Part shown: piece by piece, positions 31,795-42,897 of the stretch
How positions within the stretch are numbered: position 1 is the first letter of the stretch
How the letters are laid out: each line of letters begins with the position of its first letter
The notes under the pieces: model-generated
Seen by the model: the letters and a program-made list of their open reading frames with translations, nothing else
Database searches by the model: none
Told to the model about the DNA's origin: nothing
Assembly (NCBI GenBank): GCA_944388995.1
Contig: CALXKN010000015.1
Span: forward strand, 1-42,897
DNA from: an uncultured Spirochaetota bacterium
GTDB taxonomy: Bacteria > Spirochaetota > Spirochaetia > JAFGXN01
Direction: 5' to 3'
DNA: 42,897 nt
Position numbers and translations under genes: made by a program

Positions 31795-33344
31795 GTTCGG
31801 AAAGCCGACGAAGCACCTCTGTTTCCGCCCTCGTTGTCATGACGGCGACTATGTTTTCCCGTGTGCTCGGATTCGTTAAAATCGCTCTTATCAGCCATCT
31901 TTTCGGAGCGACAGGGAAGGCCGACGTCTTCAATTTCGTTTTTGATATTCCTAACAATTTACGCAAGCTGATGGCTGAAGGAGCGCTTTCTTCGGCTTTC
32001 ATTCCGACACTTTCCCAATCTATTGCGGCAAAAGACGGTTCTGATAAGCGGTTGGTGCGGACGCTGCTGACTTTTCAGGTTTTGATTCTGGTTCCGCTGT
32101 GCATCTTGGCGGTTATTTTCAAACGGGAAGTCATTCTTTTTTTATCCGAATACGAAGATCCCGAGCAAATCGAGTTGGCAGCGTCGCTTTTTCAGTTTTT
32201 TATTCATTACATTGTTTTTGTCAGCATCTCCGCCGTTCTCATGGCGACACTGAACTCCCGCCGTCACTTTTTGACGCCGGCGTTGGCGCCGATTGTTTTT
32301 TCGATCTGTGTCATCATTTCGGTAACGGCGTTTCATAGAAAATGGGACATTTTTTCGATGGCTCTCGGTGTTCTCTCCGGAGGTGTGGCGCAGATTTTGA
32401 TTCAACTGCCGGCCTTTTATAAAAACGGTTACCGTCTGGCGCCCGATTTTCACTTTCGCGATCCGTATTTCCGGACAATTTTGCGCCGTTGGGTACCGGT
32501 TCTTTTTGCCTCCTGCATTTTTTTCGTCAACCAGCTGATCGCCAATAAATTTGCTTCCGGATTGGAAGATGGTTCCGTTTCAGCGCTGAAAAATTCCATC
32601 ATTTTTTGGCAGCTGCCCCAGGGAATTTTCGGGGCTTCACTTTCAACGGTTCTTTTTCCCAAAATGAGCCGGGAAGCGGCCGAAAATGATCTCGACGGAT
32701 TGCGTCGAAGCGTCAATTACGGGTTAACGTTTCTTTTCCTTTTGTTGATTCCTTCATCGCTGATTTTGATTCTTTTCGGGCCTCAAATGACGGCGGTTAC
32801 CTTGCAGCACGGGAAATTTACGTTAAACGACACGGTTTTAACGGCGCAGGTTTTGGCGTTTTACAGTATCGGACTTTTTTTCAGCGCCGGCTTTACCTTT
32901 TTGCAGCGTTTTTTTTATTCGAGACAGAAGTTTGCGCTTCCCGTGGCGGTTTCCGTCGTTTTGGTTGCCATCGACATCGTCTGTTCGTTGCAGTTGAAAG
33001 AGACATCTTTGCGGGTTTCAGGTTTGGCTCTGGCCAATTCCATTGCTTTTACGGCAGCGTTTTTCATTCAGCTTGTTCTTGTCAAACGAGATTTGAAGAA
33101 TATCGGGTTTATGAGTTTCCTGAAAGAGGCCGGCAAAGGAACGCTTGCCATGATCCCTTTCACCGCCTATCTCATCGGTGTCGGATTTCTCGATTATTGG
33201 AAAAGCGGTTTCTCTGCTGTCAATTTTCTTATTGCCGCATTGTTGGGCATCGGCGCCGTTTTGATTCTCTTTGCTTCGTTTTATCTCTTTAAAATCGAAA
33301 TTTTGTCCGATATTTTAAAGAGAAGGAGAAAATCCCGTGACTAA
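31791..33344 (+). CDS. murJ: Lipid II flippase MurJ
   Basis: The 517-residue polytopic membrane protein of the MOP superfamily carries the characteristic MurJ N-terminus: FSRVLGFVKIALISHLFGATGKADVF, then PNNLRKLMAEGALSSAFIPTLS. Around 14 hydrophobic segments are expected. It flips the peptidoglycan precursor lipid II to the periplasm. It starts within the tgt stop (ATGA). Confidence 0.95.
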   Translation: MSSESRRSTSVSALVVMTATMFSRVLGFVKIALISHLFGATGKADVFNFVFDIPNNLRKLMAEGALSSAFIPTLSQSIAAKDGSDKRLVRTLLTFQVLILVPLCILAVIFKREVILFLSEYEDPEQIELAASLFQFFIHYIVFVSISAVLMATLNSRRHFLTPALAPIVFSICVIISVTAFHRKWDIFSMALGVLSGGVAQILIQLPAFYKNGYRLAPDFHFRDPYFRTILRRWVPVLFASCIFFVNQLIANKFASGLEDGSVSALKNSIIFWQLPQGIFGASLSTVLFPKMSREAAENDLDGLRRSVNYGLTFLFLLLIPSSLILILFGPQMTAVTLQHGKFTLNDTVLTAQVLAFYSIGLFFSAGFTFLQRFFYSRQKFALPVAVSVVLVAIDIVCSLQLKETSLRVSGLALANSIAFTAAFFIQLVLVKRDLKNIGFMSFLKEAGKGTLAMIPFTAYLIGVGFLDYWKSGFSAVNFLIAALLGIGAVLILFASFYLFKIEILSDILKRRRKSRD

Positions 33345-34980
33345 GAAACCTTTTTTTTTAAAGGCAATTGTTTTGCTTCTGTTTTTCAGCTTTCCGGCAG
33401 CCGCGCAGGAAACTCTTCCGAGTGATAAAACGACAGTCGAAACGCAGTCGGACGACGTACCGGCGGAAACGGCTGAAACAACAGACGGACAGTCGGCTGC
33501 CTCGGGAGATTCGGAAAAGACCGCTCCTGCAGCCGCGGCGTCTTCTTCGGCCGCTGCCGCCTCTCAAAGCACGGCGCAAAGTCGGGAACCCGATTATGAA
33601 GAAATTTTTCGCTGGGGAATGGATGATCAGATTCTTTCGACATTAAAAACGCTGACTGAAGAAAAAAAGACCGTCCCCGCGGAGTTAATTGACCGACTGT
33701 ATGCCGAAACGCTCTCGGAGAGCGTAAAAGCTGCCTGTCTCGATTATTGGCGGGAGACAAGAAACGCGCTTCACTATGATGTGGTTTTAGATAAATGGAG
33801 CGAGTTGCCGCAGCGAACGACCGCGTTGCAAAGCGCTTCTTTAAAGTATCTGTTTGCGTTTTTGCCGGAAAAAGAGGATGAAAAAACCGTCGGCGTTTTA
33901 AGCGATGTGCTTCGTTATGCCGATTTTAAGGTTCAAACGGAGTTGATGGAGCTGATTGCCGAAAAGGGGATGACAGTATTTGAACCGGTTTTAACAGTAC
34001 TCGGGCAAACAAGCGAAGATCGGCCCGCTTTGCAGGCGGCGGTTTTGAAAACTCTCGGAAAATTAAAGACGCCGGACGCATTCGAAACGTTGAAGGCTCG
34101 GTTGGCCGATCCCGATGCATCTACCGATATTCGTATGGCGGCTGCCGAAGGGTTGGGCGGTTACGGTACGCCTGAGGCTTTTTTGGCGTTGGAGCCGTTT
34201 ATGAGCGAATCCAACATTTATTTGAGGTTGAGAGTTTTTCAGGCGCTGCTGTCGACCGACAATCCGAACCTCTCTCATATCATTGAACAGGGCGGAAAAG
34301 ATGCCTATTGGCAAATCCGGCGCGATGTTTTTCGTTTTATCGGAGATCACAATTTGACCGAATACGCGCCGATGCTGTTGTTTAAGGCGAAAAACGAACC
34401 GGAACGCACTGTCCGCGATACCGTTTTGCGGGAATTGGGGAAGATGAAGACGGCGGAAGCGCGTTCGTATTTACAGGAAACGGTTCGTAACGACAAAAAT
34501 TCCATGCCGACGCGGAAAATCGCTTTCGATGCGCTTGCCGGATTTCAGTACGCTTCTCAAATTCCGTTTTTGATGGATTTGTGGAGCCGCTATAAGGAAA
34601 AACCTTCCGGTACCATTGCCGAGCACATGGCGATGAGACTTTCCGTCACCAAAGAGGCCGGATTAGATGTCATGTATGAACTGTTTTTTCTTTCTCCGGT
34701 CGGATTGTTTAAGGTTTATGCAATTCGAGGAATTGCTTTGAACGGGTCCTCTTCGTGCCGCGCCGAGATCGAAAAACTGCAGCAGAGTGACCGCAACGAT
34801 TTGTTGGCGCGGGAAGCGCGGAAGATCGATTACGGAGCTCCGACGACAGAAACTCCGACAGCAGAAACTCCGTCAGCAGAAGTTCCGTCAGCAGAAACTC
34901 CGACGACAGAAACTCCGACAGCAGAAGTTCCGACAGCGGAAACTTCGACAGCAGAAACTCCGACAGCAGAAGTTCTTTAG
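33337..34980 (+). CDS. Secreted HEAT-repeat protein with Pro/Thr/Glu tail
   Basis: This 547-residue protein starts at GTG 33337, inside the murJ end. A signal peptide (FFLKAIVLLLFFSFPAAAQE) is followed by a low-complexity Ala/Thr/Glu linker (residues 25-85). About 350 residues of HEAT/PBS-lyase-like helical repeats come next (for example LKTLGKLKTPDAFETLKARL and AAAEGLGGYGTPEAFLAL). The last 45 residues are nine tandem pentapeptides of the P-T-A-E-T type. It is probably a periplasmic scaffold; no enzymatic motif is visible. It is the last gene of the long operon. Confidence 0.8.
   Translation: MTKKPFFLKAIVLLLFFSFPAAAQETLPSDKTTVETQSDDVPAETAETTDGQSAASGDSEKTAPAAAASSSAAAASQSTAQSREPDYEEIFRWGMDDQILSTLKTLTEEKKTVPAELIDRLYAETLSESVKAACLDYWRETRNALHYDVVLDKWSELPQRTTALQSASLKYLFAFLPEKEDEKTVGVLSDVLRYADFKVQTELMELIAEKGMTVFEPVLTVLGQTSEDRPALQAAVLKTLGKLKTPDAFETLKARLADPDASTDIRMAAAEGLGGYGTPEAFLALEPFMSESNIYLRLRVFQALLSTDNPNLSHIIEQGGKDAYWQIRRDVFRFIGDHNLTEYAPMLLFKAKNEPERTVRDTVLRELGKMKTAEARSYLQETVRNDKNSMPTRKIAFDALAGFQYASQIPFLMDLWSRYKEKPSGTIAEHMAMRLSVTKEAGLDVMYELFFLSPVGLFKVYAIRGIALNGSSSCRAEIEKLQQSDRNDLLAREARKIDYGAPTTETPTAETPSAEVPSAETPTTETPTAEVPTAETSTAETPTAEVL
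34840..34974 (+). repeat. Nine tandem 15-bp repeats encoding PTAET-type pentapeptides
   Basis: There are nine in-frame 15-bp units, consensus CCGACAGCAGAAACT, encoding P/S-T/S-A/T-E-T/V at the C-terminus of the HEAT protein. Copies differ by one to three bases. Length changes keep the frame. Confidence 0.95.
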
Positions 34981-34982
34981 CT

Positions 34983-35047
34983 GTCCGCGAGGCGCTGACG
35001 CTTAAAAATACAGCGCCGTGGAGGAGGGAAAAATAGCGCTCACGGAC
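34983..35047. repeat. Imperfect inverted repeat at the core/island junction
   Basis: GTCCGCGAGGCGCT (34983-34996) and AGCGCTCACGGAC (35035-35047) are imperfect inverted copies, with a nested GGCGCTG (34991-34997) and CAGCGCC (35011-35017). It lies between the convergent HEAT-protein and hsdR genes. It could be a terminator-like structure, a dispersed repeat, or the scar of island insertion; there is no good T tract. The rest of the 34981-35115 gap holds no gene that I can support. Confidence 0.5.
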
Positions 35048-35115
35048 GGTGGGCAACGGCAACCGAGGCGCGCCTGAAAGGAGATCATGGGGCGACAAGG
35101 CGCAGGGTGTGATTG

Positions 35116-38100
35116 TTACGATGCGGCGATTTGCACCGCGTTTTCGCGGATCTGGTTGATCGCCGCCAGTAGGGCGCTTCGGGTGTTCGCGTCAAACAGC
35201 TTGATAAAGCTGACCGGTTTGTCAAACGGCGGCTTGGTCAGCTCCGCGGCGTTTTCCATATATCCATTCAGTTCTATATGATGGATGATCTTATGGACAA
35301 AGGCGATCTGCTTTTGATTTAAAGATTGATCATTTATAAAGGCAGAAAACGCCTGCATCGCCGCGTCGTGATCTAATTTGGCAATTTTTCGCACCAATAA
35401 CCCGAACGGCGTCTCTCCGAATTCCCGTTTGTAATCTTCTTCGCTTCCAAGCTCGCTGGTCAGCACGCGCTCCAACTCCCGATAATCGTTCCTTGTCAGC
35501 GGAATATTGTGGGTCAGTTTGTAAATCGCAAGCGTATTTCCGTGCTCGTTGACGTAGCGGTTGACTTTCGCGCGGTAATCCTCAAAACCGGCGTACGGCG
35601 GAACGGGTTCCCCGGCGACATCGGCGGTCACCGGATCGGTCAGGTTCGTGACAATGGTTTTTTGTCCGCTGCCGCTTTCATCCAAAAAGCGGATCAAATC
35701 CCGAAGCTGTCGCCGGGTTCGTTCAAACTGCAGAATGTCGTTGGCGTCCCAAAACGCGTCCGTCTGGATTTCCTTTAAGAGCGGCAGCTTCGCCTTAATT
35801 TGCGGAATGTTCGCCTTCCGTTCCAACAGGGCAGCGGTTTCGCAAAGCTGTTTCCTTGCGGTTTGAAAAGCGGGCGTTTGCCCGATGTACGCGAGAATCA
35901 GCCCGTATAGAAAATTGTCAAACCGCTTGGCAAATTCGTCCGTTTCTTCAAATTGAACGAGCGGCGCGATTTGCGAAAGGAGCTCTGTTTTTCCGCTTTC
36001 GCTGATCGATTGAAACGCTTCTTTGTGTTTGTATTTTTCTACGGCGTGCAGCTTGAGCTTGACGGAAATCAACTCCGGATTCAGCGCCGCGACCAGCTGG
36101 CGGCAGGTTTCGGTGATTTCGCCTCTCCACGCCTGATATTCGTCCGCGGCGAAGGCGCTTTCCTGCAAGGCTGCCGCGATTTGAACCAGCTCGCCAAATA
36201 GATTCTCCGACAGCGTTTTGGTCTCTTTTGCTTCATAGCCTTCTTGGTGCGCGCGGAAATATTCAAAATTGCCGCAGTAATCGAAAATCAAAAAGCGCCG
36301 CTTGTCCGTGTACAAGCCGTCAATCTGATCGACGCACGCCAATCCCTTACACAACCGCGTGCCGCGGCCAATCATCTGCCAGAACTTCGCTTTGGAACGC
36401 ACTTTTTTGAAGAACACCAGATTGACGCACTCGGGCACGTCGATGCCGGTGTCCATCATATCCACCGACACGGCGATTTGCGGTTCCTTTTCCGGCTGCT
36501 TGAAATCGTCGATAACAGTCTGCGCGTAGGCGTCGTCGCAGATGACGCGCTGGGCGAAGGTTCCGCGGTACTGCGGGTAGAGCTTGTTGAATCGCTCCAG
36601 AATGAACTCGGCGTGGCGCTTGTTCTGCGCGAAGACAATGGTTTTGCCCAGACGGTCGCCGCCTTCGATTTTGATGCCGCGTTCCATTAAATCCTGCAAA
36701 ACCAGATCCGCCGTTTTTTCGTTGAACACAAACTTGTTAAGCTTCTCCGACGGAATCCAATCCGGCAGAACGCCGTCTTCGATAAAATCGTCCTCATAGC
36801 GTTCTTTGTCTTCATCGGACAATTCGTCGTAGGCGATGCCTTCGTCCAGGAATTTGGTTTTCACCTCGTAATTGTAATACGGCACCAGCACATGATCCTG
36901 CCGCACAGCCGTTTCGTAATCGTAAGCGTAGGTGGGCACGCCGTGCTCCATTTCGAAGAAATCATAGGTGTTGCGGTCCACGTCGGTTTTCGGCGTGGCG
37001 GTGAGCCCCACCATCAGCGCGTCAAAGTACTCAAAAATCGCCCGGTATTTTTTGAAAATGCTCCGGTGGCTTTCATCAATGATGATCAGATCGAAATGCG
37101 CCGGGGTGAACAGCCGGCGGCCGTCTTTGGACTTGGTGTCGTCGATGGCGTTGAGAATGGTCGGGTAGGTGGAGAACACGATGCGGGCGTTCCGATCGTC
37201 TTTGTTGGAGCAGAGATTGCACAGGGACAGATCCGGCAGATAATTCTTAAAACCGTCTTTTGCCTGTTTAACCAGCGCGGTGCGGTCGGCTAAAAAGAGG
37301 ATGTTCGTGATCCACTTGCCGCGGCTGAGCACGTCTGCCAGGCTGGAAGCGGTTCTGGTTTTGCCGGTGCCGGTCGCCATGACCAGCAGGTGTTTGCGGA
37401 AGCCGTTCGCGATTTGATCGCAGACCGCCCGGATCGCCTCTTTTTGGTAATACCGGTCAGTGATGCGGTCGTCGATGGGAACGCGCGTTAAATCCATCCG
37501 TTCAGCGCGGCGGTTCATCAGTTTTTGTAAATCGTCCTTGCTGAACACGCCGCTGACTTTCCGCTGCGGGCCGGTCCGGTCATCCCAAAAATACGTTTCA
37601 AAGCCGTTGGTGGTGAACATCATCGGCCTGCGGCCGAATTGACGCTCCAAACAATCCGCGTACAGGACAGCCTGCTTGCGGCCAATGTTGGGATCTTTGC
37701 CGGTTCGCTTGGCTTCAATGACCGCGAGCGGAAGACCGTCCTTGCCGAACAGCACATAATCGCAAAAGCCCGGCTTTCCGTCCGCGCCGCTCATGCCTTG
37801 CACGGGGAACTCTTCCCGGACGTCCGCGTCCGGTCCGGTGAATTTCCAGCCCATGAGCTTTAAGTCCACATCGATGTAGATTTTGCGCGTCTGGAATTCG
37901 GAGAGGTCTTCCGGCTGGAAGACGCGTTCCTTTTGATGCTGTTCTTTTCCGGCAGTGTATTGCGCCGCCAGTTCTTCAATCTGTTTGCGAAGCGCCTCGA
38001 TTTCCGCTTCTTTTTCGTCCAGCAGCCTTTCCTGCTCTTTGATTTTCCGAGTATCAACCGCCGCCTTTTCGGCGGGGATTAGGCTTTCATCAAACGCGCG

Positions 38101-38493
38101 CTCCGCGTACTCCGCGCCGTAGCAGTAGTCAATCCACTGAATGAACTCAAACAAGCCTTTCAGCGAAGCGAGCGCGTCTCCGGGCTGTACGCTTCGTTCC
38201 GTGTGCACCGCCAGATTGCCGAGTTTGACGATGAAGGGCAGTTTGCTCCACGTTCGGGAGTCCAGCGCGAAGCGGAAGGTCGGGTCGTGAATGAGGGATT
38301 GCAGGTTGTCTTTGTAGGGCATTTCCATGGAAGTGTCGGCGGAATAGACCCATTTGACTGCCAACTCCAAAGCCTTCCGGCAGCCCACGGCGCACAGGGC
38401 GGGAGAGGAGGCATAGATTTTTTCCGCCTCGGTGCAGGCATGAGAGAAGAGGGCGTATTCGGGTTTGGTCTGAAGAAAGGTAAAGTTGGCCAA
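35116..38493 (-). CDS. hsdR: Type I restriction enzyme, R subunit
   Basis: This 1125-residue protein has an N-terminal DUF4145-like helical domain (residues 1-130, CRKALELAVKWVY) and a coiled coil (about 147-180). The PD-(D/E)xK nuclease has Asp245 and Glu260-x-Lys262 (CDYVLFG, VIEAKR). The superfamily 2 DNA translocase has Walker A ATGTGKT (373-379) and DESH (473-476), and VGLTATP and GRGTRLCKG motifs are also visible. HsdR cuts unmodified DNA after translocation in complex with HsdM and HsdS. The start is TTG 38493, nine bases after GGAGG. It has its own predicted promoter and is separated from hsdS by two other transcription units. It looks intact. Confidence 0.95.
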   Translation of the reverse strand: MANFTFLQTKPEYALFSHACTEAEKIYASSPALCAVGCRKALELAVKWVYSADTSMEMPYKDNLQSLIHDPTFRFALDSRTWSKLPFIVKLGNLAVHTERSVQPGDALASLKGLFEFIQWIDYCYGAEYAERAFDESLIPAEKAAVDTRKIKEQERLLDEKEAEIEALRKQIEELAAQYTAGKEQHQKERVFQPEDLSEFQTRKIYIDVDLKLMGWKFTGPDADVREEFPVQGMSGADGKPGFCDYVLFGKDGLPLAVIEAKRTGKDPNIGRKQAVLYADCLERQFGRRPMMFTTNGFETYFWDDRTGPQRKVSGVFSKDDLQKLMNRRAERMDLTRVPIDDRITDRYYQKEAIRAVCDQIANGFRKHLLVMATGTGKTRTASSLADVLSRGKWITNILFLADRTALVKQAKDGFKNYLPDLSLCNLCSNKDDRNARIVFSTYPTILNAIDDTKSKDGRRLFTPAHFDLIIIDESHRSIFKKYRAIFEYFDALMVGLTATPKTDVDRNTYDFFEMEHGVPTYAYDYETAVRQDHVLVPYYNYEVKTKFLDEGIAYDELSDEDKERYEDDFIEDGVLPDWIPSEKLNKFVFNEKTADLVLQDLMERGIKIEGGDRLGKTIVFAQNKRHAEFILERFNKLYPQYRGTFAQRVICDDAYAQTVIDDFKQPEKEPQIAVSVDMMDTGIDVPECVNLVFFKKVRSKAKFWQMIGRGTRLCKGLACVDQIDGLYTDKRRFLIFDYCGNFEYFRAHQEGYEAKETKTLSENLFGELVQIAAALQESAFAADEYQAWRGEITETCRQLVAALNPELISVKLKLHAVEKYKHKEAFQSISESGKTELLSQIAPLVQFEETDEFAKRFDNFLYGLILAYIGQTPAFQTARKQLCETAALLERKANIPQIKAKLPLLKEIQTDAFWDANDILQFERTRRQLRDLIRFLDESGSGQKTIVTNLTDPVTADVAGEPVPPYAGFEDYRAKVNRYVNEHGNTLAIYKLTHNIPLTRNDYRELERVLTSELGSEEDYKREFGETPFGLLVRKIAKLDHDAAMQAFSAFINDQSLNQKQIAFVHKIIHHIELNGYMENAAELTKPPFDKPVSFIKLFDANTRSALLAAINQIRENAVQIAAS

Positions 38494-38525
38494 AGAGAAA
38501 TGCCTCCGAACAATTATCCGAAAAT

Positions 38526-38554
38526 ATTATACTCTATGCCGCGGATTTTTTCTA
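38526..38554 (-). promoter_or_regulatory. Predicted hsdR promoter
   Basis: On the minus strand TAGAAA (38549-38554) and a perfect TATAAT (38526-38531) are 17 bases apart, with the hsdR start about 33 bases further on. A second TATAAT (38577-38582) lies upstream without a good -35 box. hsdR therefore appears to be transcribed independently of hsdMS. Confidence 0.55.
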
Positions 38555-38592
38555 CTTACTTCTTACGGTTTAAATAATTATAGAAAACATTT

Positions 38593-38611
38593 TGCCGGCA
38601 AAAGACCGGCA
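38593..38611 (-). terminator. Weak hairpin between small ORF and hsdR
   Basis: TGCCGG (38593-38598) and CCGGCA (38606-38611) form a 6-bp stem with a seven-base loop, downstream of the small partner ORF on the minus strand. Only an interrupted T-rich stretch follows, so it would be a weak terminator. Confidence 0.4.
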
Positions 38612-38666
38612 GAGAGGAAAATCGGGGCTTTTGCATTAAAAATATGGTGAAAAAGCGAATTTCAAA

Positions 38667-39152
38667 CTATTCTTTTTCCGTTAAATAAAACCGGTGGTTC
38701 TTGTCCAAGAACACAACATAAAAAATATCCGTAGAAAGTTGTTTTTCCTGGGCTTCGGTTTCGTCAATAAAAAAGCCGATTAGCCGGACTTTTGATTCCA
38801 GCCGGAACCGTGCCCATTTAACGGTATCAGGAATATGGCGGGGATGGGTAAAATCAGAGTTCCTGGGAAAAGTGCCGTAAATTTCCAGTACCTTTAAACC
38901 GCCGCTTCCGGTTCTCTGGTTAAGCCAATACTGTTTATTTTCTTTTGAATACTCTTTGAGTTTATCTAGAAGCTTTGTTTTTTCGTTGTCATTCCAGTCT
39001 TTAAAATCCTGCCCCGCTTTTTGGCTTCCGTCAAAATACTTAAGACTGAAGGAAAGTTTGCCTCTCGCCTCGGCAATGTCACAAACAAATTCATCTTTGG
39101 GAAGGGATTGGAGAAATCTATCTTTGCGTGGATTCTGTCTTTTCTCTGCCAA
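38667..39152 (-). CDS. Small protein of unknown family overlapping ATPase gene (possible effector)
   Basis: About 161 residues if started at TTG 39152, which has GGGAGG 11 bases upstream; the longest reading starts at 39275 and would give 202 residues. It overlaps the ATPase gene end by 35 bp (158 bp for the long form), so the two are almost certainly coupled. The protein is rich in Lys, Asp and Phe, with no signal peptide or membrane segment. Toward the C-terminus the pattern KWARFRLESKVRLIGFFI, then FYVVFLDKNHRFY, suggests a small compact alpha/beta domain. I do not recognise the family and see no HNH, TOPRIM or RloB motif. By position it could be the toxin or nuclease of a two-gene defence unit; this is inference only. 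Confidence 0.65.
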   Translation of the reverse strand: MAEKRQNPRKDRFLQSLPKDEFVCDIAEARGKLSFSLKYFDGSQKAGQDFKDWNDNEKTKLLDKLKEYSKENKQYWLNQRTGSGGLKVLEIYGTFPRNSDFTHPRHIPDTVKWARFRLESKVRLIGFFIDETEAQEKQLSTDIFYVVFLDKNHRFYLTEKE

Positions 39153-40302
39153 TTTTTGGGAATCCTCCCACCAGATGTTTTTTATAAGGTATGGAAACAG
39201 GCCTGTCGTTCCGCAAGTTGGGCGACTTGGGTTCATCCAAACGATAGCAGAAACTTTCGTTCTGTTCTTTTTCAAAAATATAGGTTCTGTAACGACCGAG
39301 AATATCCATAATATCCGTATTATGGCTGGTAAAAATCAGCTGGGCGTTTTTTGGATTCTTTTCTTTGACAAGAAACAAATCCAAAAGATGAGGCAGAATA
39401 TCCGGATGCAGGTTAATGTCAAATTCATCAAGAACTAAGACACCTCCCGTTGAAAGTACCGAGTAGTAATTCATCAGTGTGCCAAAGAGTGTTTTTGTAC
39501 CGCTGGATTCATCGTTGTATAATAAACGTTTGGTTTCCTTATTTTCAAGAGTGTGGTAAAAAACAGGAAAAGAAATAATCTGATTATATTCATTTTTCCG
39601 AGTTTCTATTTTGATATCGTCAATACCGGTATCGAACTGTCTGATTTTAGAAGCAACGAAAGCAAGGTGTTCCGGGTGTGATCGATAAAACTGTGCTGCA
39701 CCCAAAATATCCCTGGCTTTTGAATCGGATAATCCTGTATAACTGACATTGATAACAAAATAGAAAAAAAAATCAAAAATTTCTTTGATTTCTGGTAAAC
39801 CATATTGATTTAATGTACAGATAAAAGAGGCATTATCTCTGAACAAAATATCGGCATGACCTTTGTAAAGACTGTTTTTTACAACAGTGTTTCTGTTGCG
39901 TGTAAAAATTTCCGTTTCCCTAGAACCGGGGGCGGCTTTTTTTCTAAATAATCGCTCGGAGAGAACAACCTTAGGTGAAACTTCCAATTCATACCGGTAA
40001 TAAATACCGTTTTGTATGAACTCAATATATAATTCGGAAGGTTCTTTATTAAAGAAAAACGAATCAACCAAAATCTCGTCATTTGGCTTTGTTTGAAAAC
40101 TGAGTTCGGCAAAATATGTTATAAAAGCCAAAATTTTAAGAGCGTTTGTTTTACCCGAAGCATTGGCTCCCTTAAAACACATTGCCGTTGCAGCGGGAAG
40201 ATTCAACGAAATATCAGAAGGCACGGAACCGTCCAGCTCCAGATCAACCTGCATCCAGTCCTTAAAGCACCAGCAGTTTTTGGCACCGTATCCCAACAAC
40301 AT
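39118..40302 (-). CDS. AAA/ABC-type ATPase, COG1106 (RloA/AbiL-like)
   Basis: The 394-residue ATPase starts with the typical COG1106 N-terminus (MLLGYGAKNCWCFKDW). It has Walker A GANASGKT (45-52), an ABC-like signature NDESSGTK (263-270), Walker B VLVLDEFD (288-295) and the switch His in SHNTD (326-330), followed by the RPVSIPYKKHLVGGFPKIG ending common in this group. Such SMC/Rad50-like ATPases act as sensors in defence systems (RloA, AbiL, PARIS AriA, Septu PtuA), each with a different small effector. This gene has its own consensus promoter and is followed by an overlapping small ORF. Base composition is AT-rich compared with hsdR, suggesting separate acquisition. The start ATG 40302 follows GGGGGCAGG. 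Confidence 0.88.
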   Translation of the reverse strand: MLLGYGAKNCWCFKDWMQVDLELDGSVPSDISLNLPAATAMCFKGANASGKTNALKILAFITYFAELSFQTKPNDEILVDSFFFNKEPSELYIEFIQNGIYYRYELEVSPKVVLSERLFRKKAAPGSRETEIFTRNRNTVVKNSLYKGHADILFRDNASFICTLNQYGLPEIKEIFDFFFYFVINVSYTGLSDSKARDILGAAQFYRSHPEHLAFVASKIRQFDTGIDDIKIETRKNEYNQIISFPVFYHTLENKETKRLLYNDESSGTKTLFGTLMNYYSVLSTGGVLVLDEFDINLHPDILPHLLDLFLVKEKNPKNAQLIFTSHNTDIMDILGRYRTYIFEKEQNESFCYRLDEPKSPNLRNDRPVSIPYKKHLVGGFPKIGREKTESTQR

Positions 40303-40327
40303 AGACCTGCCCCCTTATTTTGATTAA

Positions 40328-40356
40328 ATTATAGTTTATCAACATATTTTTGTCAA
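40328..40356 (-). promoter_or_regulatory. Consensus promoter of ATPase/small-protein unit
   Basis: On the minus strand TTGACA (40351-40356) and TATAAT (40328-40333) are separated by exactly 17 bases; both boxes are perfect sigma-70-type consensus. The ATPase start codon is about 25 bases downstream. It is the strongest-looking promoter in the window. Confidence 0.8.
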
Positions 40357-40372
40357 GTTTTGACAAAAATAT
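40344..40372. promoter_or_regulatory. 13-bp inverted repeat covering the -35 box (probable operator)
   Basis: ATATTTTTGTCAA (40344-40356) and TTGACAAAAATAT (40360-40372) are a perfect inverted repeat around a 3-bp centre. One arm contains the -35 box and part of the spacer, so a bound protein would block polymerase. There is no T tract on the minus strand after the stem, which argues against its being a simple terminator of the HAD gene. Confidence 0.65.
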
Positions 40373-40447: not shown

Positions 40448-41626
40448 TTATAAATCATCTTCATTTATCATTGCCATAATATCCTGTGCTTCTTTTGTCA
40501 TTGTTTTTAGACTATAAATTAACTTTTTGTAAAAAATTGATACATCTAAATCACGTAATATGTAACACACTTGACTATTCTCAAGTGCAATTTTAAATAA
40601 AACCACTTTTTCTTCAAACGTCCAATTATCAACTTCTTGTAATTTACTGATAATGGAATGTGTTGTGGCAAAACTGCCGCTATTTTCTAAGGCAATGATT
40701 AAATCACTTTTTTTACGTTCACTTTCATTGACATTTTTATCGGCGTTGATTTGTTCATTTTTGTATTGATAATGCAGAGTTTCCAAAACTTCATTGGTAG
40801 CAGTGCGGTCGATGATGTTTTTAATCAAAATATCCAGTTCTGAATTTTCCGTATAATCGGCCGGGACAAAATATTTGATTCTGCCATCTCGCATCATTTT
40901 ATATACTTTTGTCTTGTCTTTGCTTTCTGCGTTGTAGACTCCAATAGAATGTCCGCCATAAGAATTCACCAGTTTCATGCAGGGAATATCAGTATCGCTG
41001 TCTCCGATATAAATCATATTGCGGAAAGGAACCCGCATTTCTTCGGGAGAAAATGATTCGTTTACGCCGGGATCGTTAATGTCCAAAACACCTTTTTCAA
41101 TACGGAACAAAAACTGCGTTTTATTGGTATAGTTGACAACTTGTGCCGGCCATACCGCCACCCCTTTTTTGTTATAATAAAAAGAACTGGCATAGATTTT
41201 TTCAAAGGCTCCGTTTTTTGCCACTGATGTTCCTTCAATTATCTCTTTCAGACCGGAAGAAATAATATAATGTTCTACGATAACCTTTTTCTCTTTTCCG
41301 TATTCCCGAATCCGTTCAAACCATTGTTCCACACCGGGAAAAAGCTGAACCTTAGAACCGTATTCCGCCAGTTTTTCTTTCGTAAACAAAACTTTGCCTT
41401 CCGATTCCTCTCTCATGGTATACATATAGGCAAGGTTTTGATCCATGTCGTTTTCTTCGGCAATACCGTTTGACTTTTGCCAAAAATCAGCAACATCATA
41501 TCCTACCGATTGAATATATCCCTGTGCCTGCATATCGTCAGGAGTTAAGGTTTTATCAAAATCGTAACAAATTGCAACAACAGGGTTAACCTCTTTGTGC
41601 TTACGCTCGTATTCTTTATCCGGCAT
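40448..41626 (-). CDS. HAD-superfamily phosphatase with extra C-terminal helical domain, in hsdMS operon
   Basis: Of 392 residues, the first 270 or so form a phosphoserine-phosphatase-like HAD domain: motif I DFDKT (Asp22, Asp24), motif II ISSG, motif III YIGDSDTDIPCMK, all catalytic positions present. After a Lys/Asn/Glu-rich linker (about 285-310) comes a helical domain of about 80 residues (THSIISKLQEVDNWTFEEKV onward) that I do not recognise. ATG 41626 follows AAGGAGG, and the gap to hsdS is 12 bp, so it is co-transcribed with hsdM and hsdS. Being cytoplasmic and adjacent to restriction genes, it might process nucleic-acid ends, a nucleotide signal or a phosphoprotein; the substrate is unknown. 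Confidence 0.82.
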   Translation of the reverse strand: MPDKEYERKHKEVNPVVAICYDFDKTLTPDDMQAQGYIQSVGYDVADFWQKSNGIAEENDMDQNLAYMYTMREESEGKVLFTKEKLAEYGSKVQLFPGVEQWFERIREYGKEKKVIVEHYIISSGLKEIIEGTSVAKNGAFEKIYASSFYYNKKGVAVWPAQVVNYTNKTQFLFRIEKGVLDINDPGVNESFSPEEMRVPFRNMIYIGDSDTDIPCMKLVNSYGGHSIGVYNAESKDKTKVYKMMRDGRIKYFVPADYTENSELDILIKNIIDRTATNEVLETLHYQYKNEQINADKNVNESERKKSDLIIALENSGSFATTHSIISKLQEVDNWTFEEKVVLFKIALENSQVCYILRDLDVSIFYKKLIYSLKTMTKEAQDIMAMINEDDL

Positions 41627-41638
41627 GAAAATCCTCCT

Positions 41639-42793
41639 TTACCCAAAGTATTCCTGCATCAGCGCCTTTTTCAGTATTTCCAGTTTTTCAAGGCTTTTTT
41701 GGATTGCAGTTTTCGTCTTGTCGGTCTGGGCAACGAACGCGGCAAAGCGGTTTTGCAAATCGAGCGATGGAACGGGAATACAAATATTTTCCACGATGGT
41801 TTTGGATATTTCTTTGAACGTCGCGCCTCTGCCGAGAGAATTAAGATAATCTACGTTGAGTAATAGCAGAGTATATAAATATCTAGGTATGATAGTTTCG
41901 TTGCAAATTATATTTTTAAAACCTTGGTTGCAATAGAAAGGATTTCCCGCAATAGCGAGTTTCCCAATAGGAGCTCTGGAAGATAGAAGCACTGTGCCGG
42001 TTGGCATTTCTTGCAGCGAGCAACTTTCTACACCGGCTTTTGTTAATTTCCTCACAGAATCGAAAATGTATCCGCTGTCTGCTTCCAACTCTGCTGGCGT
42101 GATCCATCGGTAGGGGCCTCCCCAAAACTCTTCTTGTTCTGTTTTTGGAGTCGCGCCGCTTGCAACAGTTCCAATGTCTTTTATCGTCATCCACGAGGTT
42201 TGCGCTTTCGATAAGTCACAATCCCCGAACATCTCGATAAATCGGGATTTCACCAATTCATCCAGCTTTTTGAGCTGCTGGCGGCGTTTGGCAATCAGGT
42301 CGCTGACCTTGTCCAGTACCGCCGCAATTTTACGCTGTTCGTCGAGAGGTGGGAGGGGAAGTTCTATTTCAGCTATACGGCTTTTTCTAACTGATGGAAT
42401 TGTAGTGGATTCACAGTAAGATTGCAAATCGATGCTACACATAAAATAGTAAAGGTAACGTGTATTTAAATTGTTGTTGTTTGTATGGATTCCCATTGCA
42501 TTATTATCGATAAGGCAATAATTTTCTGTTATTGCTCTGCGATTTAACCGTAGAGCTTCTCCAATTTTAGCAAAAACAATAGTTTGGGGAGGAAGAATTG
42601 TTCCGTGGATTTCTTTGACTACATTGTCGTCGATATAGTTTTCGCAGTACTTTAATTCTTGAGTGCCAAGAAGTACATTCTTTGAAATATCCCCAACCTT
42701 ATAAAAGGGATATTTTCCATTTCTATTTCCTTGAAATTTATTTGGAAATCCTGTTCCAGAAAAGAAAGTACAAACTTCCCCTAACTTCGCCAT
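41639..42793 (-). CDS. hsdS: Type I restriction-modification specificity subunit
   Basis: This 384-residue protein has two target-recognition domains (about residues 1-140 and 195-335). Each is followed by a conserved region with a coiled coil: LPPLDEQRKIAAVLDKVSDL, and at the end VPSLDLQNRFAAFVAQTD. HsdS reads the bipartite DNA target and assembles with HsdM and HsdR. ATG 42793 overlaps the hsdM stop (TGATG); a GTG one codon earlier (42796) is an equal alternative. It is a complete gene with no sign of an internal stop. Confidence 0.93.
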   Translation of the reverse strand: MAKLGEVCTFFSGTGFPNKFQGNRNGKYPFYKVGDISKNVLLGTQELKYCENYIDDNVVKEIHGTILPPQTIVFAKIGEALRLNRRAITENYCLIDNNAMGIHTNNNNLNTRYLYYFMCSIDLQSYCESTTIPSVRKSRIAEIELPLPPLDEQRKIAAVLDKVSDLIAKRRQQLKKLDELVKSRFIEMFGDCDLSKAQTSWMTIKDIGTVASGATPKTEQEEFWGGPYRWITPAELEADSGYIFDSVRKLTKAGVESCSLQEMPTGTVLLSSRAPIGKLAIAGNPFYCNQGFKNIICNETIIPRYLYTLLLLNVDYLNSLGRGATFKEISKTIVENICIPVPSLDLQNRFAAFVAQTDKTKTAIQKSLEKLEILKKALMQEYFG

Positions 42794-42897
42794 CACAGCA
42801 TCCCCTTCAGTTCTTTCAGTCCTGCGGTGATTTCTTCTTCCAGTGTATGCAGTTCCGCCATGATGTGGGAGGTGGGAGGATATTCCACCGGTACATA
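42793..42897 (-). CDS. hsdM: Type I DNA methyltransferase (M subunit), C-terminal end only
   Basis: This frame enters the window on the minus strand and ends at TGA 42793-42795, giving the last 34 residues. The ending IMAELHTLEEEITAGLKELK is the short helical C-terminus typical of HsdM, and the position directly before hsdS with a TGATG overlap supports it. The methylase motifs lie outside the window. Confidence 0.75.
   Translation of the reverse strand, partial: YVPVEYPPTSHIMAELHTLEEEITAGLKELKGML

Follow-up and report, generated by a model that had tools for sequence, protein, structure and literature searches.

Among described systems, the one closest to the locus studied here is AarT(D3):AAA(D29) of Acinetobacter guerrae, a pair that passed toxicity neutralization assays and in which an AAA ATPase acts as the antitoxin (Ernits et al. 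2023, PMC10440598). In the accessible part of that paper, AarT is described as having no HHpred matches and an mRNA-interferase fold, and as blocking protein synthesis, with labeling showing a translation block; a screen of the pair in Escherichia coli with the BASEL coliphages yielded no hits. The domain of node D29 is found there in PARIS, Gabija and Septu, and the authors relate the D29 ATPase to AbiLi. Their network takes Panacea as its starting point and reaches the other nodes via shared partners, and D3 would be the node joining Panacea to D29. In the literature that we searched on AarT and NetFlax, no title on AarT was found beyond this study (PMC10440598).

Kurata et al. (2022, PMC8832971) had validated nine Panacea-neutralized pairs with diverse toxins, and the available text also reports complex formation. 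In PARIS, as described in the accessible portion of PMC11455837, the AriA ATPase restrains AriB and lets it go once it senses Ocr, an anti-restriction protein. Finally, according to the available part of PMC12255303, DarTG2 of enteropathogenic E. coli (EPEC) lies between hsdS and hsdR, together with the repressor RptR and palindromic repressor sites.

Results

The window, i.e., the whole stretch of 42,897 nucleotides (42.9 kb) analyzed here, comes from an uncultured Spirochaetota bacterium and carries on its minus strand a 394-aa ATPase gene with an ATG start (39118..40302), followed by a small ORF of 161 aa with a TTG start (38667..39152). The two genes, whose overlap had been noticed in an earlier sequence-only reading of this DNA, share 35 nt, and a Shine-Dalgarno-like GGGAGGA, which would serve the TTG-started gene, lies inside the ATPase gene at 39163..39169 (minus strand), 10 nt upstream of the TTG. 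The ATPase has all of the motifs GANASGKT, ESSGT and LVLDEF, which we take to be Walker A, signature and Walker B, respectively, and which the same reading had pointed out. It matches AAA_21 in Pfam (E = 3.9e-35), as well as AbiLi (E = 2.4e-59) and AriA (E = 8.9e-33) in PADLOC, and is annotated here as a predicted antitoxin or sensor partner. A weak terminator-like hairpin (38593..38611, minus strand) is located 3' of the small gene, with a fold z of -2.33 for 38580-38670.

The small ORF had been described as belonging to no recognized family, and the libraries agree: searches of Pfam, NCBIfam and PADLOC with the window protein gave nothing at E ≤ 1. Among the four libraries used, PHROGs alone models it, with phrog_8366 (E = 1.5e-4), a phage family of unknown function, as the sole match. 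As a single query, the protein matched 1 of 148 kin genomes, namely its own, and 0 of the 147 others, and no relative was confirmed among viral contigs; profile searches were needed. By tblastn, relatives were found on plasmids (one from Shewanella, at 46% identity, and small ones from Acinetobacter and Salmonella; 16 records altogether) and in one Bacteroides phage. The profile search of the phylum matched 15 of 392 genomes, own genome included, 13 of them at E < 1e-20; one of these 13 copies (in G168) has internal stops, and the matches in G449 and G362 are weak. Moreover, profile searches yielded at least 80 loci with a family member (of 93 confirmed) among 84,980 species genomes, and 11 and 13 viral contigs in two separate searches.

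In seven Treponema/Spirochaetaceae metagenome-assembled genomes (MAGs; L042-L048), homologues of the small protein, 63 to 68% identical, each stand directly after the same ATPase, and since all seven keep this arrangement, the pairing is more than chance. The gene pair singled out by the sequence-only reading has counterparts well beyond these genomes: directly upstream of the family member lies an AbiLi-type ATPase in 74 of 103 loci and Panacea (SocA/PanA) in 27, with no other partner (0) and two loci without any. As partner we took the longest ORF (90 aa or more) that ends near the family member on the same strand; as for the two partnerless loci, the start of L053 coincides with a contig end, and the family ORF of L103 has a mere 89 aa. 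Older copies of the same contigs, as well as L037-L040 and L086, from which no intact family ORF was recovered, were omitted from the set. All 27 Panacea partners match Pfam PF13274, and PADLOC calls AbiLi in 45 of the 45 ATPase partners scanned, out of 74. With longest ORFs, the toxin gene overlaps its partner in 67 of 74 ATPase rows and in 25 of 28 Panacea rows (28 since L120, with a split frame, was counted twice).

The distances between small proteins follow those between ATPases (Spearman 0.78 over 69 pairs, 0 of 2000 permutations being as high), a correlation of which a part may reflect species relationships. In the tree of the small proteins (97 of 104 rows, 7 being left out as broken, short or without a partner), the Panacea-linked rows lie among ATPase-linked ones; a single origin of the Panacea partner was set aside, the tree asking for at least two partner changes though being also compatible with one. 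Because the partner elsewhere is a dedicated antitoxin domain (Panacea), we infer that the small protein is a toxin whose neutralizing partner is swappable. The family is a bridge of the type seen in the network of Ernits et al., shared between Panacea and the ATPase.

Conserved residues common to the ATPase-linked and the Panacea-linked members are Q44, W53, Y92, F95, P96, P104, W113, G126, D150, H153 and F155. The loci were gathered with a peptide pattern around FYVVFLD, so that the invariance of FYVVFLD is partly built in; D150, H153 and F155 are also kept in a five-member alignment of the window protein with plasmid and phage members found without this pattern. A Pfam scan of 67 family members gave scattered weak matches alone, each in at most 3 members. 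A link to Nsn genes, raised by a weak NsnC match of P0005, was dropped, the literature on Nsn genes appearing unrelated.

The window pair shares with AarT:AAA(D29) a small toxin gene immediately next to one for an ATPase of the AbiLi/AAA_21 type, a toxin without recognizable sequence family (Pfam, NCBIfam, PADLOC), an mRNA-interferase-like fold, here by fold resemblance alone (HigB, Z 6.9; RelE, Z 6.8), and a toxin family shared with Panacea. It differs from the A. guerrae pair in lying in a genome of the spirochete phylum, inside a type I restriction-modification (R-M) operon and next to a candidate palindromic operator. Thus, the window protein is very probably of the AarT kind described in 2023, an assignment based on shared features rather than on direct sequence comparison. 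In PanA:PanT, to judge from the accessible part of PMC8832971, the partner is Panacea, after which the same toxin family is found in 27 of the 103 loci, whereas the window partner is an ATPase. A new effector class, as had been proposed from the sequence, was rejected in view of the Panacea-linked homologues together with the AarT paper (PMC10440598), to which absent family, interferase-like fold, AAA partner and Panacea sharing all fit. The wider proposal of a candidate new defense system stands in part: a conserved ATPase-effector pair does lie inside a restriction locus, but its effector is very probably known (AarT).

With AbiL/RloAB (AbiLi ATPase and RloB/AbiLii), the window has the ATPase family in common but lacks the RloB/AbiLii partner, PF13707 being absent from the small protein. 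An RloB control from the window's own genome was recognized by PF13707 and is unlike the window protein. The effectors of PARIS (AriB, Toprim) and Septu (PtuB, HNH) were likewise not matched by the window protein in PADLOC and Pfam, a comparison of sequences only. Identity with RloB, AriB or PtuB was therefore rejected for lack of a sequence match, in line with the sequence-only reading, which had seen neither RloB nor HNH nor Toprim in it. The window pair can still be likened to PARIS, where, in the available text of PMC11455837, an ABC-type ATPase holds a translation-blocking nuclease under an Ocr-type trigger; the effector is Toprim in PARIS and RelE-like, by model, in the window. As a side observation, a second AAA_21 ATPase, 26% identical to that of the window, is encoded with an RloB partner (PF13707) on contig C19 of the same genome (L002, 722-2559), near a YgjP-like metallopeptidase gene. 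By their predicted families, two AbiL-like modules with different effectors coexist in this genome.

Structure prediction, which the sequence-only reading had put forward, gave a confident AlphaFold2 model from 67 aligned sequences (pLDDT 90, pTM 0.79), the single-sequence fold being useless (pLDDT 39.8). The model comes nearest to the RelE/HigB/YafQ mRNA interferases. The top VIA-align entries are E. coli HigBA (Z 6.9 over 94 residues), Thermus thermophilus RelE (Z 6.8) and Proteus vulgaris HigB (Z 6.6), where Z values below 8 are modest and may reflect a common arrangement, and rows within 1 Z are tied. By title, 46 of the 50 entries listed are toxin-antitoxin toxins or complexes, the other four being Txp40, Cami1, HP0894 and HP0892; the dominance of a single kind of toxin among the entries obtained with this predicted model tells more than any one score. 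Foldseek against PDB and BFVD returned nothing significant (best E = 0.64), with HigB and BrnT among the top five rows. In hhalign, the family reached a probability of 0.1% against HigB_toxin (19 sequences) and 0.4% against ParE_toxin (20 sequences), compared with 0.5% for an unrelated Panacea control, and a likeness of the C-terminal strands to HigB_toxin noted by eye was discarded, as it had no statistical support in this profile-profile comparison. A PDB profile search gave three matches read as chance (best E = 0.005 over 33 positions). The link to RelE/HigB/YafQ mRNA interferases thus seems to be one of modeled fold resemblance alone, likeness to HigB and RelE being present (Z < 8) and sequence-profile similarity to the RelE superfamily absent.

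Residues D150, H153 and F155, invariant near the C-terminus, presumably resemble the histidine and aromatic active sites of HigB and YafQ. A toxin with a RelE/ParE-type fold may nevertheless hit another target, e.g., DNA gyrase as ParE does, or be no enzyme, and ParE structures are indeed also listed by VIA-align, while no profile link was found to HigB_toxin or ParE_toxin, the two subfamilies tested. We regard this as improbable, given these three residues and the top VIA-align ranks of HigB, RelE and YafQ, even though rows within 1 Z are tied. The labeling of A. guerrae AarT, as reported in the accessible part of PMC10440598, also points to a translation block, and we retain a predicted mRNA interferase as the preferred reading of the toxin.

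The sequence-only reading had placed the pair between hsdS-HAD and hsdR, which family matches in Pfam and PADLOC corroborate, all neighbors being on the minus strand. The surrounding type I R-M operon comprises hsdR (35116..38493), hsdS (41639..42796) and the 3' end of hsdM (42793..42897), which is cut by the contig end; the latter was identified by its 98% DNA identity with the end of a sister-species gene (L212, 5798-5904) that Pfam assigns to hsdM. The operon is probably complete, with the contig cut inside hsdM. Between hsdS and the pair lies a second cargo gene (40448..41626, minus strand) encoding a HAD-family protein of the PADLOC candidate single-gene defense family PDC-S34 (E = 4.6e-199), found in 8 of the 98 genomes searched, own included (E ≤ 1e-20). 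In the sister species (G001, same genus), whose hsdR is 99% identical, the order is hsdM-hsdS-[280-aa SLFN_AlbA_2 protein]-hsdR, and this Schlafen/AlbA_2 gene (L212, 3778-4620) replaces the HAD gene and the pair. Neither the toxin nor the HAD protein was found in the G001 genome, and the ATPase of the pair is absent from its R-M locus. DNA identity with G001 is 98.5% over 34884-38557 and resumes at 98% over 42791-42897 (hsdM end), with weaker matches within hsdS. Since identity stops at 38557 and resumes at 42791 with a different gene in between, the hsdS-hsdR gap is, on this comparison of gene content, a swappable cargo slot.

Beyond hsdR, the window encodes a protein (33337-34980) with a C-terminal tandem repeat (TAETPTAEVPSAETP..., DNA 34838-34971), and these repeats give multiple blastn matches to the end of the sister contig.

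The nesting of ATPase-toxin pairs in type I R-M operons recurs, as judged from predicted gene families. In three of the Treponema/Spirochaetaceae MAGs (L043, L046, L048), the genes lie on one strand in the order hsdR-hsdS-(0 or 1 small gene)-ATPase-toxin-hsdM, with hsd genes called by Pfam, and in a Bacteroides locus (L111), hsdS is followed by the pair and then by hsdR, 15 nt past the toxin gene. Of the 74 ATPase loci, 10 have an hsd gene no more than 5 kb away, and of the 27 Panacea loci 0 do (4 of 31 and 0 of 11 when restricted to loci with 5 kb on both sides), counts that are lower bounds owing to narrow hsd models and many short loci. A toxin-antitoxin pair in this very slot, again within a type I R-M operon and with palindromic sites, is also seen in DarTG2/RptR, which differs from the window, in the available text of PMC12255303, by its other toxin, its separate repressor gene and its 6-bp TAGCTA site. 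In another Treponema MAG (L045, 1088-7830), an hsdS-like gene, called by similarity to that of the window, an 831-aa TIR-domain protein and a RhuM-family protein precede the ATPase-toxin pair, all in a row.

These locations bear on whether the main role of the pair might be to prevent loss of the element carrying it (R-M cassette, prophage or small plasmid) instead of acting against phages. Relatives are indeed present on small plasmids that carry few genes besides (P0004 matches 71 PLSDB records, with sizes of 4.6 to 18.8 kb among the 40 matches listed), and the published E. coli screen of A. guerrae AarT:AAA, in the part of PMC10440598 available, brought no protection against coliphages. The repeated siting inside type I R-M operons and beside defense genes (the TIR protein in L045 and retron Ec67 near the pair in L010) argues for phage defense, as does the anti-phage function of AbiL and PARIS, the closest relatives of the partner, so that we consider mere maintenance of the element rather unlikely.

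The promoter of the pair, a perfect sigma-70 TTGACA-17-TATAAT (40328..40356, minus strand; 12 of 12 positions), had been recognized in the sequence-only reading and is the sole exact match in the 42.9 kb for spacers of 15 to 19 nt, with 0.02 expected by chance. We found in addition that a palindrome with 13-nt perfect arms, ATATTTTTGTCAA-AAC-TTGACAAAAATAT (40372-40344), covers the -35 box (40344..40372, minus strand), which forms one of its halves; its core is TTTGTCAA-N3-TTGACAAA at 40349-40367. Among the 71 ATPase loci that extend 100 nt or more upstream, 16 have the core TGTCAA...TTGACA, in either order, before the ATPase; two of these, L034 and L126, agree in the core and encode identical toxins. 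The corresponding count for Panacea loci is 0 of 26. The palindrome TTTGTCAAnnnTTGACAAA before the ATPase recurs mainly in spirochetes, and its outer arms vary between species with complementarity kept. It has a single exact copy in the window's own 1.93-Mb genome; at two mismatches, there is one further site, equal to the reversed control pattern. Twelve other genomes, 11 of them carriers, were searched at up to one mismatch: the only site is at the pair in 7 carriers, and G412 has three sites, the exact one at the pair. The single site of G400 lies elsewhere, and none was found in G367, G443 or G001, the last of which has no pair.

Because the site is so tied to one system, the palindrome is best explained as a candidate operator bound by a protein of the system itself. 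It might instead be bound by a host regulator or be incidental to a strong -35 box, one half-site being the -35 hexamer itself; moreover, Pfam gave no DNA-binding domain in either the ATPase or the small protein, and with one mismatch allowed, 3 of 11 other carriers (G367, G443, G400) show no site at the pair. We find this doubtful: a promoter does not require the mirror half, 16 of the 17 core sites in 1.32 Mb of loci fall within the 24 kb preceding partner genes, the sole site lies at the pair in most of the other carriers (7/11), and the outer arms differ by species yet remain complementary. We thus keep the candidate operator of the system as the preferred reading of the palindrome.

Discussion

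We propose to read the pair as a toxin-antitoxin module of the AarT:AAA type, putatively acting in abortive infection, for which a type I R-M operon provides the cargo slot, a reading to which, as a whole, we assign a probability of roughly 0.78. It builds on what was observed directly, namely, the gene pair and its family, partner swapping, fold similarity, the promoter-like sequence, the palindrome and its specificity, and the cargo-slot position, from which we infer the toxicity, the neutralization, the trigger and the operator binder of the window pair. In this model, the RelE-superfamily-like toxin would probably cut mRNA on the ribosome and stop translation, and the AbiLi-type ATPase would bind the toxin and keep it inactive. 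On infection, perhaps by a phage disabling restriction as in PARIS, the ATPase would free the toxin, and cell growth would stop. The pair has a separate promoter, and the palindromic operator covering the -35 box would probably allow the system to repress itself.

Several observations speak against this model: hsd genes near a minority of the ATPase loci (10 of 74), the lack of profile similarity to HigB_toxin and ParE_toxin, the coliphage screen of A. guerrae AarT:AAA without hits, relatives on small plasmids that resemble maintenance modules, and one single record. On this Salmonella plasmid (L012, 413-2261), the toxin ORF is intact and the ATPase frame is in four pieces, which would not be expected of an essential antitoxin; the frame break may be due to a sequencing error or may hint at how the toxin is controlled. 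Taken at face value, it would favor an ATPase that activates the small protein rather than restraining it, the small protein alone being inert. L012 is, however, one record that may contain sequencing errors, and the ATPase is intact in the other three of the four small plasmids checked, related E. coli and Klebsiella plasmids among them. Besides, the same toxin family pairs with Panacea antitoxins, which neutralize toxins, and the A. guerrae pair was validated as a toxin with a neutralizing AAA partner, according to the available text of PMC10440598. Activation by the ATPase therefore appears very improbable, and a restraining ATPase is retained.

The sequence-only reading had cast the ATPase as a sensor, a view drawn by analogy with PARIS, whereas the AAA ATPase is treated as an antitoxin in the accessible part of PMC10440598. 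Both roles would meet if the AbiLi ATPase held the AarT-type RNase and sensed the loss of the surrounding type I R-M system, e.g., through anti-restriction proteins. This more specific proposal remains tentative and is, in our estimate, unlikely to hold in full. If true, the window would provide, to our knowledge, the first DNA-level autoregulation of an AAA-type antitoxin. Altogether, a role of the pair in phage defense is a plausible prediction, and the pair is a candidate second line of phage defense rather than a new class of system.

The kind of effector is probably already known, as the published AarT:AAA (Ernits et al. 2023, PMC10440598, available part). New here are the Schlafen/AlbA_2 gene in the sister slot, the recurrent nesting in R-M operons and the palindrome TTTGTCAAnnnTTGACAAA over the -35 box. 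A little-studied kind of toxin-ATPase pair, with one published example found in the literature searched, is now linked with restriction operons of type I, and two sister species use the hsdS-hsdR gap as a cargo slot for different genes. The palindrome provides a specific candidate regulatory site for the pair. As a handle, this operator would allow a reporter to show the ATPase-toxin complex forming or breaking and, hence, to reveal the trigger of the system.
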